Virus record (IMG/VR): IMGVR_UViG_3300045146_000055
Coordinates: 1-39,041 of that record
Strand: one strand, 5' to 3'
From: a virus
DNA length: 39,041 nucleotides
Part shown: positions 13,421-29,987 of the stretch, one piece after another
How positions within the stretch are numbered: the first letter of the stretch is position 1
Layout: each line of letters opens with the position of its first letter
Translations under genes and position numbers: made by a program
Notes under the pieces: generated by a model
What the model saw: the letters and a program-made list of their open reading frames with translations, nothing else
Databases searched by the model: none
What the model was told of the DNA's origin: nothing

Positions 13421-14226
13421 TCGTCATAGCAGTCTGGGATACGTTGGAAAACCAGCGCACGTGGATGACTCGTGAAACGCTCATTTCACTGATGAACCGG
13501 GTTGACTGGCGACGGCATCGGCTCATCATCTCCGATAATGGTTCGTGTCAGGCCACACAGGATCAATACGCGGAGTTCGCCAAGTCGTTTCCCTTTCGTG
13601 TGATCCAGAATGGTGAGAATATCGGAACAGCGCGAGCCGTGAATCGTGGGTGGAGCTACCGTAGTCCCGGCGAGCATGTTGTGAAGATGGACAACGACGT
13701 AGTGATTCATCAGAGCGGATGGGCAGATCAGATCGAAGAAGTGTTTCAGCGAGACCCGGTTATTGGCATTTGCGGTCTCAAACGAAAAGACCTGATCGAG
13801 TGCCCAGATCATCCCGAACCCGGTTGGCGGTCGCGGCTCAGGATGCTTCCACATAAGCCCGGAGAGCGTTGGATCATTGTTGAAGAGTGCGGGCATATCA
13901 TGGGGACTTGTCAGGCGTATAGCAGCGCCTTAATAGACAAGATCGGCTATCTCTATCAGGGTGACTGGAAATATGGATTCGATGACTCTCTTGCGGGCGT
14001 GCGGGCGAATGTGGCCGGGTTCAGGCTAGTGTTCCTACCGCATATCGAGATAGACCACATCGATCCCGGTGGAAACGATTACACATCTCAAAAACAGAAG
14101 GACGCAGGAGTTGTAATGGGGAAGTGTGTTGAGTTGATGCGCGAGTATCGCTCCGGTCAACGATCTCCATACCATGATGGCGGGGAAGATGCGAAGTGGT
14201 CTCAACAACACCCGGAGAAAACATGA
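13414..14226 (+). CDS. GT2-type glycosyltransferase
   Basis: 270 aa from ATG 13414, overlapping the previous stop. GT-A fold signs: N-terminal LIVIAVWD strand, RLIISDNGS near residue 40, NIGTARAVNRGW near 72 and the metal-binding KMDNDVV (DxD-like) near 92, followed by a GTCQAYSSALIDKIG acceptor-side segment and HIEIDHID. No membrane segment, so a cytosolic enzyme on a soluble or DNA-borne acceptor is likely. It starts a run with a methyltransferase and a second GT2 enzyme, all overlapping, suggesting one modification pathway. Confidence 0.82.
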   Translation: MLIVIAVWDTLENQRTWMTRETLISLMNRVDWRRHRLIISDNGSCQATQDQYAEFAKSFPFRVIQNGENIGTARAVNRGWSYRSPGEHVVKMDNDVVIHQSGWADQIEEVFQRDPVIGICGLKRKDLIECPDHPEPGWRSRLRMLPHKPGERWIIVEECGHIMGTCQAYSSALIDKIGYLYQGDWKYGFDDSLAGVRANVAGFRLVFLPHIEIDHIDPGGNDYTSQKQKDAGVVMGKCVELMREYRSGQRSPYHDGGEDAKWSQQHPEKT

Positions 14227-23284: not shown

Positions 23285-23553
23285 ATCTTTGTTGCGTGAA
23301 GCACGCTTCAGAGAAGGGATACTTCAGCTAACGGTTCTAAGGTAGCTCAGGTCCAAGCCATCCGAATGGATGCTATGTTCGGAATGGACGACACAGCGAG
23401 TAGCGACAGAGTGGCATCTGTCTGAGAACGGGGAGACCCGGCGCTACGTTTCAGCGGCCATAGCCAGCGCAAGCTGGTTTGGTGCGGAAAGCCATTCAAG
23501 AAAGGCCCTTTTCGATTATCGGTGCCAACGCACTTTCATCTAGGGATGGGAAT
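23285..23553 (+). ncRNA. Structured RNA 1 / leader with 23S-like segment
   Basis: 269 bases without a convincing gene, dense in hairpins: GCGTG-AAG-CACGC (23294-23306), CATCC-GAAT-GGATG (23359-23372), CCAGC-GCAA-GCTGG (23464-23477, GNRA loop). Bases 23329-23346 match 17 of 18 bases of the conserved 23S rRNA segment around E. coli 1926-1943 (TAACGG-T-CCTAAGGTAGC with one change). A weaker likeness to the 2053-2068 segment (ACGG-x-x-AGACCC) follows at about 23427-23438, in the same order as in rRNA. Could be an independent RNA or a long leader of the 23554 gene. Confidence 0.65.
23298..23325 (+). repeat. GAAG...CTTCAG...GGGATACTTC motif, copy 1
   Basis: First and shortest of three copies of an RNA-like motif; the other two (27157-27189 and 27374-27406) share GGC-x-C-x-CTTCAG, then GGGTTACTTC. 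Here GAAG is followed directly by CACGCTTCAG and GGGATACTTC. Confidence 0.55.
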
Positions 23554-24075: not shown

Positions 24076-24477
24076 TGTGGTTTTGACCGGGCGATGTGAA
24101 AAGCAAGCCGAGTCATTCCCTTAGCGGGGAAGAAGACAGGGGAAGCGTAGCGTCGGAGAGTGGGTTAGCGCCCATCCCGGTTGTTCTTTGAAATGAAAAG
24201 TCTGTAAAGTAGCTCGTCCATCCGACTGACGACGTGTCGGACAGCGGGTGAAAATCAGGAACGGAAAGAAAGCCGTTCACGGTAGGCCGGAGTGGTAACA
24301 CGCTTCGGCGGACATCCTGCCGTCAATAGTAGGATGCTGCTGCTCCCGTCCGAAAGGATCAGGAGAGACACGGGGCTGACATCGGGTAACACCTAGATGG
24401 CACAGGCTCGTAGGCCAAGACGGAATACCGAAAGGTATGCCTGCCCGATGAAAGAAAGGACAGACCGACAGACTTTT
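24076..24477 (+). ncRNA. Structured RNA 2 with boxA
   Basis: About 400 bases with no convincing gene. A boxA (24182-24193) splits it. Hairpins after it include TCCGAC...GTCGGA (about 24220-24240), GAACGG-AAAGAAAG-CCGTTC (about 24260-24279) and ATACC-GAAA-GGTAT (GNRA loop, about 24425-24438). No good promoter is visible, so it may be co-transcribed with the 23554 gene. A short likeness to 23S (GGGTAACAC, near 24384) is too short to count alone. Confidence 0.6.
24182..24193 (+). promoter_or_regulatory. boxA-type antitermination motif 1
   Basis: TGTTCTTTGAAA, the form found in bacterial rRNA leaders and spacers, where NusB/S10 load to make transcription termination-resistant. Confidence 0.7.
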
Positions 24478-24507
24478 CTCCATATCGCCGGAGACATCTG
24501 GTAATGT
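24478..24507 (+). promoter_or_regulatory. Class A promoter for RNA 3
   Basis: CCATAT 24480-24485 and TAATGT 24502-24507, 16 bases apart, preceded by TTTTCT as at 15638. The boxA at 24513 would sit within the first few transcribed bases, as in rRNA leaders. Confidence 0.78.
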
Positions 24508-24932
24508 GGGTGTGTTCTTTGACAGAATAGGCAGGGGAATGTTGGCTTAGAAGCAGCCAGATAGAAATATCAGTTTTCTCTTGCTGGCGTGATTGCCATA
24601 GAATACAAGGGGGAACTCATCTAAGGAGTGAATCGCTGAGCATTGCTCCGTGAGTGTCATGGGGAAACCTGACTACTCGGAGTAACGCAATAGGGATTGG
24701 GCAGGCCGGACGGAACCGGATGTCTGGACATACGTTGGGTGAAAACCCAACTAGCACCCTTCTCGCAAGGAAGGAGAGGACGCCAGAGTGTACTGCCCTA
24801 TTGTGCGGCAAAGGAGGTTGCGGCTCCCGTGTGGGTGAATAGTCTTTCGTGTGGTAGAAGCATAACCCGCAAGGCCATACTCAATCGCATGGTGGATTCT
24901 TTGGCGTAATAGCACACCTTTGCTTGTTCTGT
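24508..24932 (+). ncRNA. Structured RNA 3 with L11-binding-hairpin-like 23S segment
   Basis: Starts at a class A promoter with boxA TGTTCTTTGACA at 24513-24524. Bases 24539-24559 match exactly, over 21 bases, helix 43 of the 23S GTPase-associated centre (E. coli about 1060-1080; TTGGCTTAGAAGCAGCC core). The upstream context GACAG...CAGG also agrees. Near the 3' end, 24903-24918 (GGCGTAATAGCACACC) resembles helix 44, which follows helix 43 directly in rRNA; here about 340 bases separate them. An internal GTTGGGT-GAAA-ACCCAAC hairpin (24734-24751) lies between. No gene is seen. Probable function: RNA that presents this ribosomal site; see findings. Confidence 0.7.
24513..24524 (+). promoter_or_regulatory. 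boxA-type antitermination motif 2
   Basis: TGTTCTTTGACA directly after the class A promoter. Confidence 0.75.
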
Positions 24933-24944
24933 TGTTCTTTGACA
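24933..24944 (+). promoter_or_regulatory. boxA-type antitermination motif 3
   Basis: TGTTCTTTGACA followed by TTTTGAC; same 12 bases as motifs 2 and 4. It separates RNA 3 from RNA 4 within one likely transcript, as boxA does in 16S-23S spacers. Confidence 0.75.
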
Positions 24945-25498
24945 TTTTGACTGGCAGCGGTACGGCACTAGGAACGTACTTGCGCATTAAAGTCCCAGTG
25001 CGCGACAATAGCCACGGTAGGGTTAGAAGCCCGATGTGGTCGCCGTTGAAAACAACGGCAGCGTGAGTCTGAGACCGTAAAGACGGTGAGTTCAACGCGA
25101 ACCTGACGAGCTTCGTCTGCCTTTCCAGACTACGGTCATATACATGCCCCCGCAAAGGAGCTAACGGGGTCCCGTAAAGGACGCCGGGACGATGGCCGCA
25201 AGTGGGAAGGAGAAACAGACGAGTGGCGGGGAGAGTGGCGACAAGGCATTCCTTCAGGCTGGGCGCATTAAAAATTCCGTGGGCACGGATATATGCCTTG
25301 GGCAAAAATTGTTTCTGCTGTTTGATCCCGAAACGTAGAAGCAGTCAGTAGTGGCGAGCGAACACTGTGGAGAATCGGGGTAGGCAAGTGTGTCGGTGAG
25401 AATCCGGCCTGCCAGTTTTCGTCCAGATGATGTGACTTGCGGCGCACAAGGGTCCTGTGGTAGAGTGTTCTGGACCATTGCACCGTAAACTTTTTGAT
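24945..25498 (+). ncRNA. Structured RNA 4 with 23S domain I-like module
   Basis: About 550 bases rich in hairpins: GCCGTTG-AAAA-CAACGGC (25042-25059), ACCGT-AAAG-ACGGT (about 25074-25087), GACGA-GCT-TCGTC (about 25106-25119), CCGTG-GG-CACGG (about 25278-25290), TGCC-TTG-GGCA (about 25294-25304). Bases 25346-25363 match 17 of 18 bases of the 23S domain I segment CAGTAGCGGCGAGCGAAC, and are closed by CAGT/ACTG where E. coli has CCCC/GGGG. It leads directly into the initiator tRNA. Size, ornateness and the tRNA recall the phage-associated GOLLD and ROOL RNAs, but I cannot confirm membership. Confidence 0.65.
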
Positions 25499-25575
25499 CG
25501 CGGGAGGGAAGGCCGTGGTGGTCTCGTGGGGTTCATAACCCTATAAGTCGGGTTCGAGTCCCGGTCCCGCTACCA
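25499..25575 (+). tRNA. Initiator tRNA-fMet (CAU)
   Basis: 77 bases with encoded CCA. Acceptor CGCGGGA/TCCCGCT leaves C1xU72 unpaired, the hallmark of bacterial initiators (usually C1xA72). Anticodon stem-loop TGGGG-TTCATAA-CCCTA gives CAU and three consecutive G:C pairs (29-31 with 39-41), the other initiator determinant. T-arm TCGGG-TTCGAGT-CCCGG is regular. The D-arm is one base longer than in E. coli. It lies inside a run of structured RNA rather than in a tRNA cluster. Confidence 0.92.
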
Positions 25576-26125
25576 ATTTGAAGATGCGTTCGCCTGTCGC
25601 ACGGGCCTGTGATGGGTCGTCAAACAAGGCATGTCGAGCGTGAGACATGTCATCAGTGAATGGGGAAGGCGCATCTCGCAGAAGACGTGGAGCAGGAAAT
25701 CGATTACCGGCAAACCTGCTCTTCGTAATGCGGCAAGGCGGTTCTAAGCCCGCCTGTGGGCAAGCGTACTGTTGGGCCGGAAGGCAGGCATGTCGTCGGA
25801 ACTCAGCAGATGGTAGAATAGGCCGCTAATAGCTCACGAAGGTTCGGTCAACGCCACGACGAAGGCGCTAGTCATAAGGTTGGCGGTAGCCGGGCTGCTT
25901 GGATGGTGGAGTCGGCGGTGGAAACATCGCCCCCAAAAGAACCGCTTGCGGGAACCCTGAGCCGCAGTGATCTGTGGCTGGCTCTGAAGGGCTGCGGGAA
26001 TGAACCTACCGCTACTACGCGCAGCGAAAGCTGCTAGGGACTTGTCGGCCCAAATGAACCAACCGGCAAGGGTCGGGTTTGCTGGTCTGGCTGTGAAATC
26101 TTCGCCCGGATGGAGCCAGACCAGC
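25576..26125 (+). ncRNA. Structured RNA 5 downstream of initiator tRNA
   Basis: 550 bases with no gene. A first domain is closed by AGATGCG (25582-25588) and CGCATCT (25670-25676) with an inner CATGTC/GACATG stem. The 3' end is a perfect 12-bp stem GCTGGTCTGGCT (26081-26092) / AGCCAGACCAGC (26114-26125), which may end the transcript just before the next promoter. Bases 25825-25837 (GCTAATAGCTCAC) again resemble the 23S helix 44 loop. It may be the second half of one large RNA split by the tRNA. Confidence 0.6.
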
Positions 26126-26131
26126 AACAAT

Positions 26132-26161
26132 TTCCATATTGATGACAGACTGTGGTAATGT
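26132..26161 (+). promoter_or_regulatory. Class A promoter for tmRNA
   Basis: CCATAT 26134-26139 and TAATGT 26156-26161, spacing 16. A leader of about 90 bases follows, with hairpin TGAACGGA/TCCGTTCA (26169-26176, 26194-26201) and boxA 4. Confidence 0.75.
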
Positions 26162-26244
26162 GGTCGCATGAACGGATAGATGGGCATCGGTATTCCGTTC
26201 ATTGAAGCGGGTTGCCTAGCCGCCGAAAGGTAGGAGCGATGTCT

Positions 26245-26256
26245 TGTTCTTTGACA
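26245..26256 (+). promoter_or_regulatory. boxA-type antitermination motif 4
   Basis: TGTTCTTTGACA ending one base before the mature tmRNA 5' end. Confidence 0.72.
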
Positions 26257-26340
26257 TGGGCGCGATACGGTTTCGACGGGTGAAGTTGAAATCGAGCGAC
26301 ACGCCGAGTAATGTCTGGTTGGACTCGTTAATCTATCCCA

Positions 26341-26436
26341 GACGACAACACAAACGCCAAGAGAACTCTTGGTAAGGTGATTCGCGGTGTCTTCGGTGCT
26401 GCTGATGAAGCGGTGCCGATGCTCGCGGCTGCGTAA
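26341..26436 (+). other. tmRNA tag-peptide reading frame
   Basis: DDNTNAKRTLGKVIRG then VFGAADEAVPMLAAA and TAA. The two other frames close after about 11-13 codons. The D-D-N start resembles A-N-D-N type tags and the hydrophobic A-A-A end fits protease recognition. At about 31 residues it is roughly three times the usual length; long tags are known from some phage tmRNAs. Confidence 0.7.
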
Positions 26437-26650
26437 GCAGCCCACCGTCACGGTGTAAGACTACGTGAACCGCCGTGGCTCAAAGCACGTGGTTGACAGC
26501 TTGGAAAGACAGCGATACCGGAGCTGGTCATTCCGGGGAAGGATGGACCAAAGTTGCCGGTTGACAACCGGATAGACCAAGCCCGTGGTCGAGAATATCG
26601 GGCGAAGCGTGTGTATGTTCGGCGTAGACTCATTCGGACGGGAGTTCAAT

Positions 26651-27072
26651 CCAAAGGTTGCCTTGCTTGGCGACAAGCAAGGAAAAGAGTGCTCAAACGG
26701 TGAACGCTAAATCCGTAAGGATATGCCAACGCCGTCGAGTGGGCTGGAAACAGCGAAGCTCGCTAGAGACTTATAGGCACCTTCAACCAAAGCTGGTTAT
26801 GGTGTACTAGGATGGAAGAATCTTTCTCGAATCTGAGTTTGGCTTCGCGCATGGCGGCGGTGTATTTCCCGTTCCGTGGAGTAACCTTGTGGTAAACATG
26901 GGCGAGAAGGAACGCCGAGTCAGGAAGATCGTTCCTTCGCCATCGATGATGCCGGTCAGATAACCGAGATCGAATTTTTTCATAAATGCACTCCTTCTGG
27001 ATGTAGGTTATACCTACAGCATGTCCAGAAGAAGGAATAGTCCAGACCATTACGAAAGTAAAGGATAATCTG
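26651..27072 (+). mobile_element. Group I intron in tmRNA T-loop
   Basis: 422 bases. P1: exon CAAT pairs with intron GGTTG to give a U-G wobble at the 5' splice site (after T26650). P2: CCTTGCTT (26661-26668) / AAGCAAGG (26675-26682). P4-like AAACGG...CCGT near 26695-26733. The R-like element GCTAGAGACTTATAGG (about 26762-26776) and S-like AAGGAATAGTCC (about 27032-27043) can form P7 (GACT/AGTC). A 3' hairpin TGTAGGT-TAT-ACCTACA precedes. The last intron base G27072 fits the conserved terminal G. Tag and acceptor are restored after splicing. Confidence 0.88.
26807..26983 (-). pseudogene. LAGLIDADG homing endonuclease remnant, antisense in intron
   Basis: 58 codons on the minus strand with AAGGAG seven bases before the ATG. 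Begins MKKFDLGYLTGIIDGEGTI, a full first dodecapeptide motif (LTGIIDGEG), continues FLTRRSFSPMF, then becomes Pro/Ser-rich and stops. Real enzymes of this family need about 120-300 residues. It is therefore a decayed or deleted endonuclease, with the intron now probably immobile on its own. Antisense placement relative to the host RNA is unusual. Confidence 0.75.
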
Positions 27073-27099
27073 TCTCCCCGCGTCCACCAATTTCAAGGT

Positions 27100-27141
27100 C
27101 ACGAAAAATAGTTGCAAACAATTTCGTGGCGTGAGTATAGT
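27100..27141 (+). promoter_or_regulatory. Class C element/promoter after tmRNA
   Basis: Inverted repeat CACGAAA (27100-27106) / TTTCGTG (27122-27128), then GAGTATAGT with TATAGT 27136-27141 and TTGCAA 18 bases upstream of it. It likely drives the short RNA or message ahead of the second tRNA. Confidence 0.65.
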
Positions 27142-27156
27142 GTAGTGAAAGTGAAC

Positions 27157-27189
27157 GAAGTCAGGCTCACTTCAGTTCTGGGTTACTTC
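27157..27189 (+). repeat. GAAG...CTTCAG...GGGTTACTTC motif, copy 2
   Basis: Lies about 15 bases after the class C promoter. Agrees with copy 3 at roughly 27 of 33 positions; GAAGT/ACTTC can pair as a hairpin with either downstream CTTC. Confidence 0.6.
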
Positions 27190-27241
27190 ATAAAGCAACC
27201 AGAAGTCTCCGGCGGCGACAAGGATCGCCGTTAGTAGGAGA

Positions 27242-27355
27242 ATGACGGCCTGCAAAGACAGGATGGAGTTCAGGGAAGACTGGATGGCAGCATGGGAAGA
27301 CATGCAAATGGCAGCTCGGAAAGACGGCTTTCCCGGAGCGCATATCGGAGCTTGA
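27242..27355 (+). CDS. Small protein, 37 aa (tentative)
   Basis: ATG 27242 is preceded by TAGTAGGAGA, a good ribosome binding site. The peptide has an acidic/aromatic repeat-like helix (EFREDWMAAWEDMQMAARKD) and ends GAHIGA. It follows motif copy 2 and a short hairpin-rich leader. Could instead be part of a structured RNA; only the ribosome binding site and amphipathic pattern support coding. Confidence 0.5.
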   Translation: MTACKDRMEFREDWMAAWEDMQMAARKDGFPGAHIGA

Positions 27356-27373
27356 TGTAGTTCTGTGAGTGTT

Positions 27374-27406
27374 GAAGTATGGCACGCTTCAGTTTGGGGT
27401 TACTTC
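27374..27406 (+). repeat. GAAG...CTTCAG...GGGTTACTTC motif, copy 3
   Basis: GAAGTATGGCACGCTTCAG then TTTGGGGTTACTTC. Ends about 50 bases before the second tRNA and may be part of its primary transcript. Confidence 0.6.
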
Positions 27407-27454
27407 TGCCTTTCATAGAAATACCCCAGACGGTCATCGGTGTCGGCTTTTGAT

Positions 27455-27531
27455 TGCGGGGTGGAGCAGCCCGGTAGCTCGGCTGGCTCATAACCAGCAG
27501 GTCGTTGGTTCAAATCCAACTCCCGCAACCA
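27455..27531 (+). tRNA. tRNA-Met (CAU), initiator-like with altered anticodon stem
   Basis: 77 bases with encoded CCA. Acceptor TGCGGGG/TCCCGCA gives a weak U1-A72 pair. The D-arm GGAGCAGCCCGGTAGCTC is almost that of E. coli initiator tRNA, including purine 11 - pyrimidine 24 (A11-U24). The anticodon arm GCTGG-CTCATAA-CCAGC gives CAU but has U29-A41, so only two G:C pairs, not the initiator three. T-arm TTGGTTCAAATCCAA. It may be a diverged initiator, an elongator Met, or an Ile-AUA tRNA if C34 is modified to lysidine. Confidence 0.85.
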
Positions 27532-27537
27532 CAGAAG

Positions 27538-27566
27538 GCCGGACGCCGAAAGGTGCCCGGCTTTTT
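27538..27566 (+). terminator. Terminator after second tRNA
   Basis: GCCGG-A-CGCC, GAAA loop, GGTG-C-CCGGC, then TTTTT. Ends the RNA island. Confidence 0.88.
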
Positions 27567-27585
27567 GTTTTGAGAAAGGAGTCGT

Positions 27586-28233
27586 ATGAAGCCAGTTTTG
27601 AAGCCGAACATTATGGTCTCACAGGACGAAGTAGACTTGGTAATCGGAGAGCTTGACCGGGTACTCAGGCTGGGCCTGCCGGGAGACGTGGTAGAGTTCG
27701 GGTGTAATGTGGGGAATACGTCGGTGTTCTTACAGGATGCGTTGCAGCGGAATGGAAGCCAGAAAAAGCTGGTGTGCATTGACTCGTTTCAGGGGTTCCC
27801 GGAGACGGAGTCGATTGACGAAGACTGCTTCAAGAAGGGTGGTCTGGCAGTACAGCAGGCAGAGCTGCTGGGTCATTTCGACGAGTTTCAGCTTCCGCAT
27901 CCCGTGGTCGTACAGTCGTGGATCGAAGAGCTTCGAGCGAAGGATTTGCCGGATGAGATTTGCTTCGCGTTTGTAGACTGTGACATCTACAAACCGGCAA
28001 AGTGGGCATTCGGATTGGCGTGGATCAGGATGCCGGTAGGCGGGTCGGTTGTGTTTCACGACATCTGGGCGAAGGGAATCCAGCGGGCGATCTGGGAAGG
28101 TCGTCAAGGGATGTCGCGGGAAGAGATTGCATGTTGTCACAGGTCGTACATTGTCAGGAAGGTGGATTCGGTGCCCGTGGTGGGCAAAATTGGCGGCGAT
28201 AATGCCGCACTTCAGGAAGGGGTGAGACAGTGA
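27586..28233 (+). CDS. TylF/MycF-like O-methyltransferase family protein
   Basis: 215 aa with AAAGGAG before the ATG. VVEFGCNVGNTSVFLQ near residues 36-51 is the SAM site, VCIDSFQGFPETESIDED near 66-83 and FVDCDIYKPAKWAFGLAW near 128-145 with GGSVVFHDIW are typical of the macrocin-O-methyltransferase (TylF) family. Family members methylate sugar hydroxyls in macrolides; here the substrate is unknown and could be a glycan from the GT2 enzymes or an RNA ribose. Overlaps the Ro60 gene by four bases, so the two are co-translated. Confidence 0.85.
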   Translation: MKPVLKPNIMVSQDEVDLVIGELDRVLRLGLPGDVVEFGCNVGNTSVFLQDALQRNGSQKKLVCIDSFQGFPETESIDEDCFKKGGLAVQQAELLGHFDEFQLPHPVVVQSWIEELRAKDLPDEICFAFVDCDIYKPAKWAFGLAWIRMPVGGSVVFHDIWAKGIQRAIWEGRQGMSREEIACCHRSYIVRKVDSVPVVGKIGGDNAALQEGVRQ

Positions 28234-29987
28234 GTACGTTCAAGACGGTAGCACGGCAGAAGTCGGCGGCTGCATTGCAGCCGAGTCATGCTCCGAACGC
28301 ATCGGTCAACCGGGCGGGCGGAGTGGCATTCGAGATTAGCGATCCATCACTGAAGCTCCTGACCATGACAGGCGGGGCTTTCTTTGCGGAGCCGAAGTTC
28401 TACAACGGCGACCAGTGTGTGCCGAAGCGTGGAACGGGCGGCAAGTTTGAAAAGCTGGCCGAGCGTCTGGAGATCGTGGGTGACAAGCTGAAGGGCGTTG
28501 TGTCTTGCGATGAGCTGGACGAGACGGCTCGCGAAGTTGTGGCGACGGCTCTGGATGTGGCACGGGGCAATAACCCGGAAGACATTCTGGCGATTGCTAA
28601 TTGGCTGCGTAACGAGATGAACATCCGGCTGACGCCGCAGGTGTTGCTGGTGCTCGCTTCGCGGATGGACAACACGAAGTCTCTGGTGCGCAAGTACGCT
28701 CCGTGCATCGTGAAGCGCCCGGACGAAGTGAAGAGCTGCCTGTTGATTCACCGGTTCTTCTTTGGGTTGAAGGACCTAAAGAACGGTCTGGCCAACGGTC
28801 TAGCCGACGCGCTGGGGAAGTTCGGGGAGCGGGGACTGATGAAGTACGACGATCCGGGATTCCCGACGTGGAAGGATGTGCTGTGCTGGCTGCCGCGTAA
28901 GGCGGGCTGGCCGCTGAAGGCGGAAGTGGCGCAGTATTTCATCACCGGGAAGATTGGTGATCCGGCGAAGGTTCCGGTCATCGCGGCCCGCAAGGAGCTG
29001 GTGAAGTGCAAGGCGTTTGACGCCGAAGCTCGCAAGCTGGCCCGTGCGTCAATGGTGAACTGGGAAGTTCTGCTTTCGCAGTTTGGCAACGACAAGCAGG
29101 CGGTCTGGGAGTTCTTGGTTCAGGAAGACTTGCTGGGTTACATGGCTATGCTGCGTAACCTTCGCAACATTCTGGAAGCCAAGGCTGGCCGGACGGTCAT
29201 TCAGAAGGTGTCGGACAAGCTGTCCAACCACGATGAAGTCGTGAAGTCGAAGCAGCTCCCGTTCCGGTTCCTGTCGGCGCTGAAGGCGCTGGAGGGGATG
29301 CAGGGCGAGTTCGATCAGGCCGACGTGTCTGAGCTGATGGCGGCTGTGGAGCTGGCTTCCAACGAAGCCTGTGCCAACATCCCGGTTCTGCCGGGGACAA
29401 CAGTCATCTTCGCGGATGTGTCGCAGTCGATGCGCCGTAACAGGGTGTCGGACAAGTCAGAAGTCAACTGCGCGGATGCGGCAACGGTGCTGTGTGGTAT
29501 CGTGGCCAAGGTCGCTGAGCGCCCGTATGTCGTGGCGTTCGGTTCGGATGTGGCTCCGGTGTTGTTCTCGAAGAACGACACGGTGCTGCGGATCGCCAAG
29601 CGGACGCTGGATGCGGACACTAAGGGGTGCTCAACCAACGGGCACAAGTGCGTGGAGTGGCTGATCCAGAAGAAGCTGGTGCCGGATCGTGTGGTCTTCC
29701 TGTCTGACATGCAGATGTGGAATGACAACGATTCCAACGACGATCAGATTTGTCTTTCCGACGTGTGGGACAAGTACCTGAAGTCGGCGGCTGGCGCGAA
29801 GAATACGTGGGCGCACTGCGTCCATGTCAACGGCTACGGCGACAACGTCGTCGAAGGGGACCGGATAAACATGGTTGCCGGGTTCTCGGAGAAGGTCGTG
29901 ACGATGATGCTTCAGACGGAAGGCGTCATTGGCGGAAAGGCTCTGCCGACAGTGGAGCAGGTCCGTGAGAAGTGGACCGTGAAGTAA
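28230..29987 (+). CDS. Ro60/TROVE-domain RNA-binding protein
   Basis: 585 aa, GTG start coupled to the methyltransferase. N-terminal TROVE domain of HEAT-like helices (about 20-385; e.g. IANWLRNEMNIRLTPQVLLVLAS, KDVLCWLPRKAG) and a C-terminal von Willebrand A domain (about 388-570) with MIDAS motifs FADVSQSM near 394, a Thr/Ser region CSTNGHK, and FLSDMQMW near 490. This is the full layout of vertebrate Ro60 and bacterial Rsr. The ring binds misfolded RNA 3' ends through its hole and Y RNAs on its outside; in bacteria it works with nucleases on rRNA and other RNA. It directly follows the RNA island. Confidence 0.92.
   Translation: MSTFKTVARQKSAAALQPSHAPNASVNRAGGVAFEISDPSLKLLTMTGGAFFAEPKFYNGDQCVPKRGTGGKFEKLAERLEIVGDKLKGVVSCDELDETAREVVATALDVARGNNPEDILAIANWLRNEMNIRLTPQVLLVLASRMDNTKSLVRKYAPCIVKRPDEVKSCLLIHRFFFGLKDLKNGLANGLADALGKFGERGLMKYDDPGFPTWKDVLCWLPRKAGWPLKAEVAQYFITGKIGDPAKVPVIAARKELVKCKAFDAEARKLARASMVNWEVLLSQFGNDKQAVWEFLVQEDLLGYMAMLRNLRNILEAKAGRTVIQKVSDKLSNHDEVVKSKQLPFRFLSALKALEGMQGEFDQADVSELMAAVELASNEACANIPVLPGTTVIFADVSQSMRRNRVSDKSEVNCADAATVLCGIVAKVAERPYVVAFGSDVAPVLFSKNDTVLRIAKRTLDADTKGCSTNGHKCVEWLIQKKLVPDRVVFLSDMQMWNDNDSNDDQICLSDVWDKYLKSAAGAKNTWAHCVHVNGYGDNVVEGDRINMVAGFSEKVVTMMLQTEGVIGGKALPTVEQVREKWTVK

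Follow-up and report, generated by a model that had tools for sequence, protein, structure and literature searches.

A stand-alone phage RNA built on the GTPase-associated centre of 23S rRNA is a candidate for capturing host ribosomal protein uL11

Why would a virus carry an exact piece of ribosomal RNA among its own RNA genes? The question is raised by a window of 39,041 nucleotides, the whole stretch of viral DNA analysed here (IMG/VR record IMGVR_UViG_3300045146_000055), in which a preliminary description made from the sequence alone had pointed to a 21-base identity with helix 43 of E. coli 23S rRNA. A BLASTN comparison with the E. coli genes rrlB, rrsB and rrfB confirmed this identity: window positions 24539–24559 (ATGTTGGCTTAGAAGCAGCCA) equal 23S 1057–1077 at 21 of 21 positions (E=2.9e-4), with the second-best rRNA match of the window at E=0.52. 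The helix 44-like segment reported near the 3' end of the same RNA was likewise recovered, since 24904–24917 match 23S 1091–1104 with a single difference, A for U at 1101. However, the agreement that had been claimed for the flanks (GACAG...CAGG) did not hold up, as these bases form a variable closing stem, P1, and are not homologous to 23S because the sequence of P1 differs between relatives while its pairing stays. Two further window pieces, 23329–23346 against 23S 1917–1934 and 25346–25363 against 240–257 (E about 0.5), were taken as chance because they have no match within 4 substitutions in the relatives L037–L041. At the window element, Rfam 15 gave no match even at E<=10, LSU models included.

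The full window element (about 24530–24924) is the 58-nt GTPase-associated centre (GAC; 23S 1051–1108, helices 42–44) split by two insertions. A structured phage RNA with the L11-binding GAC had been proposed before, and this part stood; the element proved larger than had been noticed there. All its parts lie on the plus strand. Directly before the RNA is a leader element with a putative function, TGTTCTTTGACA (24513–24524), a repeated 12-mer conserved in L037 and L038. The entire RNA (24530–24924), whose mature ends are not fixed, is delimited by P1 and supported by its fold energy and by conservation of the insert in L037 and L038. Pairing and covariation define P1, which takes the position of helix 42 from 23S 1055 outward and joins 24530–24537 to 24917–24924. 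Its 5' strand is followed by A1056 at 24538, placed by covariation across relatives in a triple A1056·(C1082–G1086), which is the expected combination, and then by the 5' strand and tip of helix 43 (24539–24559). Alignment to 23S puts insertion A, a GATA-GAAA-TATC hairpin plus a 12-bp stem, between 1077 and 1078 (24560–24616). 23S 1078–1090 resumes at 24617–24629 with recognizable landmarks, namely the 3' strand of helix 43, the CUAAG loop 1082–1086 and GAGU 1087–1090. Insertion B, between 1090 and 1091 (24630–24899), is closed by GAATC/GATTC in a helix that covaries. By comparison with 23S, the stretch from 24900 to 24917 comprises UUUG and 23S 1091–1104, that is, helix 44 with a GUAAUA loop and the phage-specific A1101, and it runs into the 3' strand of P1. 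The 400 nt at 24527–24926 fold at -149.1 kcal/mol versus -128.9 for shuffled sequence (z=-4.3). The unconstrained fold of the window RNA has a slightly different helix 43/44 region, at -148.6 kcal/mol versus -135.3 with the GAC helices enforced, a value that leaves out tertiary energy. In the same-lineage relatives L037 and L038, the core and the inserted domain are retained and P1 is altered on both sides.

Searches of other viral sequences showed that the window is one case among many. The GAC RNA occurs in at least about 120 distinct IMG/VR sequences and about 13 kinds of isolated phage, never with the rest of 23S. The helix 43 20-mer ATGTTGGCTTAGAAGCAGCC is present exactly in 32 IMG/VR contigs, only one of which (L028) is a real 23S gene, so the earlier claim that the match lies far above chance is borne out. 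In nearly all the others, the sole 23S similarity at E<1e-5 by BLASTN covers about 1055–1088, and at the same threshold no continuous large-subunit rRNA was found around the GAC in carrier contigs. Except where a locus stops short of it, nearly all 20-mer loci also have a second signature downstream, UUURGCGUARYAGCACAC or something close to it, and this family signature differs from 23S (GCGUAAUAGCUCAC). A search with the 3' signature gave at least 119 IMG/VR stretches plus 8 contigs in GTDB genomes; among the listed signature sites, a strand of helix 43, matched with no more than 4 substitutions over 18 positions, lies 55–655 nt upstream in 127 of 137. Isolated carriers include Aeromonas phage 4_4572, Pseudomonas phages pf16, Milchi, Astolliot and UNO-G1W1, Xanthomonas phages XacN1 and XbC2, Serratia phage BF, Cronobacter phage GAP32, Pectobacterium phage CBB and several Erwinia phages, in which the RNA is mostly left without annotation and in a few is labelled 'hypothetical protein'. 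At 17 carrier loci Rfam found tRNAs only; under permissive Rfam thresholds the short member L087 gave a sub-threshold LSU match of 31.4 bits. Neither Rfam 15 nor the open-access literature that we searched describes a functional rRNA domain copied as a free-standing phage RNA, in line with the undescribed status supposed at the outset.

Related phages and covariation in the stem were where the preliminary description had looked for a decision; the stem is kept in related phages, and covariation is strong. In a non-redundant set of 50 cores (A1), standard pairs filled 93.6% of pair cells versus 67.9% after shuffling, double-sided changes numbered 327 versus 103, and the covariation score was 0.642 versus 0.150 for shuffled and 0.08–0.18 for slid versions. 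All nine pairs of P1 and all four of the insert-closing helix covary across the 50 relatives, and helices 43 and 44 are paired in 99–100% of cells in A1. In 23S, position 1056 presumably touches the 1082–1086 pair as a base triple. In the phage RNAs, 1056 covaries with 1082–1086 (p=7e-11, or 2.4e-8 when each insert family and type is counted once). Of 55 sequences with G1056, 52 have U-A or A-U at the 1082–1086 pair, and of 38 with A1056, 26 have C-G; five more sequences have other combinations. The ribosomal U1082–A1086 is a Watson–Crick pair that closes the loop of the GTPase centre (PMC6689051). The search patterns partly fixed columns 1059–1076 and the 3' signature and left P1, the insert helix, 1056–1058 and 1080–1086 free; the covariation is based on these free parts. 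Loci picked by helix 43 alone and not cut by the locus end nearly all have the 3' signature too. R1, a covariance model built from phage copies only, finds the GAC of E. coli 23S (43.9 bits, E=5e-9) and that of Paenibacillus 23S (51.1 bits, E=6e-11); the two insertions of the window copy reduce its match to R1 to two weak pieces, of 14.6 and 14.0 bits. The structure of the phage GAC RNA is under selection.

What might such an RNA do? The preliminary description had suggested titration of L11 or of translation factors, or a decoy for attack on host rRNA. In vitro, L11 is bound by the 58-nt GAC in isolation. The explanation that we find best, with confidence a little above even, is that this phage RNA stands alone and acts in trans, and that its GAC core (23S 1051–1108) would bind host uL11; many large bacterial viruses probably use the RNA for capturing this host translation protein during infection. 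Sequestration of uL11 would need an RNA abundance comparable to that of free L11, and the insertion at 1090/1091 might hinder L11.

The architecture is shared across the family. Numbered as in 23S, P1 replaces helix 42 (1055–1104 outwards) and is followed by helix 43, the 1082–1086 loop and 1087–1090, which read GAGT in 99 of 99 standard members, and then by a self-closed variable insert, UUUR, the helix 44 tip (1091–1100) and A1101 C1102 A1103 C1104. The insertion point is exactly between 1090 and 1091, and the phage-specific A1101 allows U1090 to pair across the new junction. About a dozen members have the second insertion at 1077/1078, among them, besides the window, L007, L011, L015, L051, L068, L100, L115, L121, L135 and L137. 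That all copies share A1101 and the insertion between 1090 and 1091 points to a single old origin. Inserts range from 23 nt to over 600 nt, and one similarity cluster holds 24 of 98. It is conceivable that the GAC is a structural scaffold, clamping L11 (or an L11-like protein of the phage) so as to stabilize or tether an RNA whose real work is left to the variable insert; the inserted domain is indeed large and conserved within the window lineage, and the cluster of similar inserts fits this idea as well. However, the insert shrinks to 23 nt in L095, and inserts share no structure family-wide (mean z -0.93), so that a uniformly structured insert domain, weakly supported at best, was rejected and only the core is universal. 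We therefore consider the clamp role unlikely. At their 3' end, the inserts of L003, L004, L017, L057, L109, L112, L159, L160 and others have the recurring motif CACCCC-G[GT]AA[AC]-[CT]GGTAAGG[CA] or variants of it, which looks like a GNRA-type hairpin. In L030 (about 521–1210), the insert holds an antisense frame of 134 aa with HNH-endonuclease-like motifs (CASC...FHH...CANCHR), which suggests that mobile elements may invade GAC RNA inserts.

The differences from ribosomal GACs help to decide what the core is read by. The ribosomal GAC is the docking region of EF-G, EF-Tu, IF2, RF3 and RelA, and the phage RNA could be a decoy or sponge for these factors rather than for uL11, presenting the factor-binding face. 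The helix 43/44 tips are retained, with A1095 in 99 of 99 standard copies, as such a decoy would have it. A1067 is a main contact base for factors and thiostrepton, and A1095 is another such base. In a small baseline of real 23S, comprising 12 distinct sequences from two phyla in the main, 1056, 1067, 1068, 1070, 1082, 1086 and 1101 are invariant, whereas the phage copies have A1067 in only 81 of 99 (G in 14; G, C or T in 18), G1068 in 78 and A1070 in 82, and vary 1056, 1082 and 1086 with compensation. Position 1101 is A in 98 of 99 phage members and U in all 12 real sequences. Moreover, the affinity of translation factors for a bare GAC is weak when the other parts of the 50S subunit are missing. 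Because the fold and the triple are kept and the factor-contact tip around A1067 is relaxed, the evidence leans to a partner that would read the fold, uL11, rather than to the GTPases, and a decoy for translational GTPases or RelA appears quite unlikely.

We further examined the genomic context. Among the listed sites (counted without L096), tRNAs lie within 1.5 kb at 75 of 121, with 342 on the same strand and 0 on the opposite strand. Sigma-70 promoters of the RNA's own are not enriched upstream (36 versus 34 expected), which makes it likely that the RNA is transcribed together with the tRNA array. In the window, the leader 12-mer TGTTCTTTGAHA stands at 24182, 24513, 24933 and 26245, directly before four RNA units including the GAC RNA and tmRNA; four exact and two one-mismatch copies compare with 0.54 expected, and 0 of 100 shuffles reach 6. 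L037 and L038 have the same leader before their GAC RNA and tmRNA, and it is probably a phage-specific promoter or processing signal. No uL11 was found in 50 carrier contigs, with 14 of 14 control genomes positive. The bL12 stalk docks beside the GAC, and bL12 (PF00542) is over the cut-off in 6 of the 50 (L121, L013, L098, L129, L077 and L104). There is no constant neighbouring protein family; none occurs at more than 9 examined loci, the commonest being HNH endonucleases (9 loci).

Several other features were observed around the RNA. RNA genes crowd together over 3.5 kb of the window (24076–27580), with a tmRNA at 26266–26653 (58.3 bits in Rfam 15, not detected by ARAGORN), a Twister-P5 ribozyme at threshold at 25677–25753 (Rfam 15), tRNA-Met at 25499–25575 and 27455–27531, and further structured units, for example 24194–24480, closed by AAAAGTCTGT/ACAGACTTTT. 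Just downstream of this cluster, 28230–29987 encodes a Ro60-like protein with TROVE and vWA domains; TROVE proteins occur in 7 of 50 GAC-RNA phage contigs, and L095 has a sub-threshold match to a Y RNA-like RNA (YrlA) within its tRNA array (13506–13623). A 704-aa frame at 221–2335 of the window has Hint/LAGLIDADG intein-type domains and similarity to an anaerobic ribonucleotide reductase family.

We also considered whether the RNA could be a decoy substrate or antagonist of a host factor that attacks helix 43/44, either a defence toxin or an enzyme modifying rRNA, a role to which we give little credence. To our knowledge, no defence toxin has its target within 23S 1051–1108, and the retained base triple and fold go beyond a mere cleavage sequence. 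What speaks for it is the position of the GAC RNA in same-strand tRNA arrays, analogous to phage tRNAs, which are proposed to evade tRNA-targeting defences (PMC10264068). Finally, a chance match or a functionless fragment of captured or contaminating rRNA can be dismissed: viral collections do contain contaminating rRNA, and two loci that are genuine 23S genes, L028 and L162, were set apart, but the other members recur with a derived A1101, the 1090/1091 insertion and UUURG that are shared and absent from real 23S, lie on a fixed strand of the tRNA arrays, and covary in P1 and the base triple, which refutes this reading.

Returning to uL11 as the probable partner, we propose that the RNA would be transcribed with the tRNAs and then processed out, and that the processed RNA would take a GAC-like fold and bind host uL11, perhaps along with the L10/L12 stalk. 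Holding uL11 would favour L11-poor ribosomes. RelA activation requires L11, and on such ribosomes activation of RelA, and with it the stringent response, would be damped and factor-dependent steps altered during phage takeover of translation. The grafted domain may stabilize or localize the RNA, or add a second function.

Among known systems, the closest is the 23S GAC itself (helices 42–44; part of RF02541), which resembles the phage RNA in helix 43/44 sequence, in the 1082–1086 loop and in the base triple, has helix 42 where the phage RNA has P1, and is matched by R1. In contrast, the phage RNA is stand-alone, is closed by an unrelated stem that covaries, has A in place of U at 1101, and bears insertions at 1090/1091 and 1077/1078. 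OLE RNA, also non-coding, is proposed to hold a ribosomal protein via a ribosome-like pocket, with RpsU/bS21 hypothesized as the sequestered protein (PMC12286853), and this proposal is a precedent of the same general kind. It differs in RNA, protein and genomes and is not known as built on a copied rRNA domain. GOLLD and ROOL, too, are large and structured, occur in phages and prophages and often lie close to tRNA islands; the passages of PMC12286853 consulted on them mention no GAC core. The OLE, GOLLD and ROOL models of Rfam had no match in the window or at 17 carrier loci. Ribosomal protein leaders, such as the L1-binding leader of the L11–L1 operon, are mRNA mimics of an rRNA protein-binding site (PMC10931766). 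They are cis-acting and precede ribosomal protein genes, whereas the GAC RNA lies in tRNA arrays with no consistent neighbour gene and is not upstream of such a gene. The stable RNAs C and D of T4 were rejected as members, as T4 70908–71171 has no GAC signature and the only match, of 10.4 bits, lies elsewhere in the stretch.

Taken as a whole, we hold it an even call that the GAC RNA is a widespread, previously undescribed class of phage RNA which presents a functional GAC in trans to capture host uL11, disabling the stringent response or reprogramming translation through uL11, and carries a diversifying second domain in helix 44. For the sequenced jumbo phages GAP32, CBB and BF, this would also put a name to an RNA that lacks annotation. 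If uL11 binding is true, the RNA would supply a natural GAC variant for ribosome biochemistry and would constitute a new viral route to translation or the stringent response by RNA alone.
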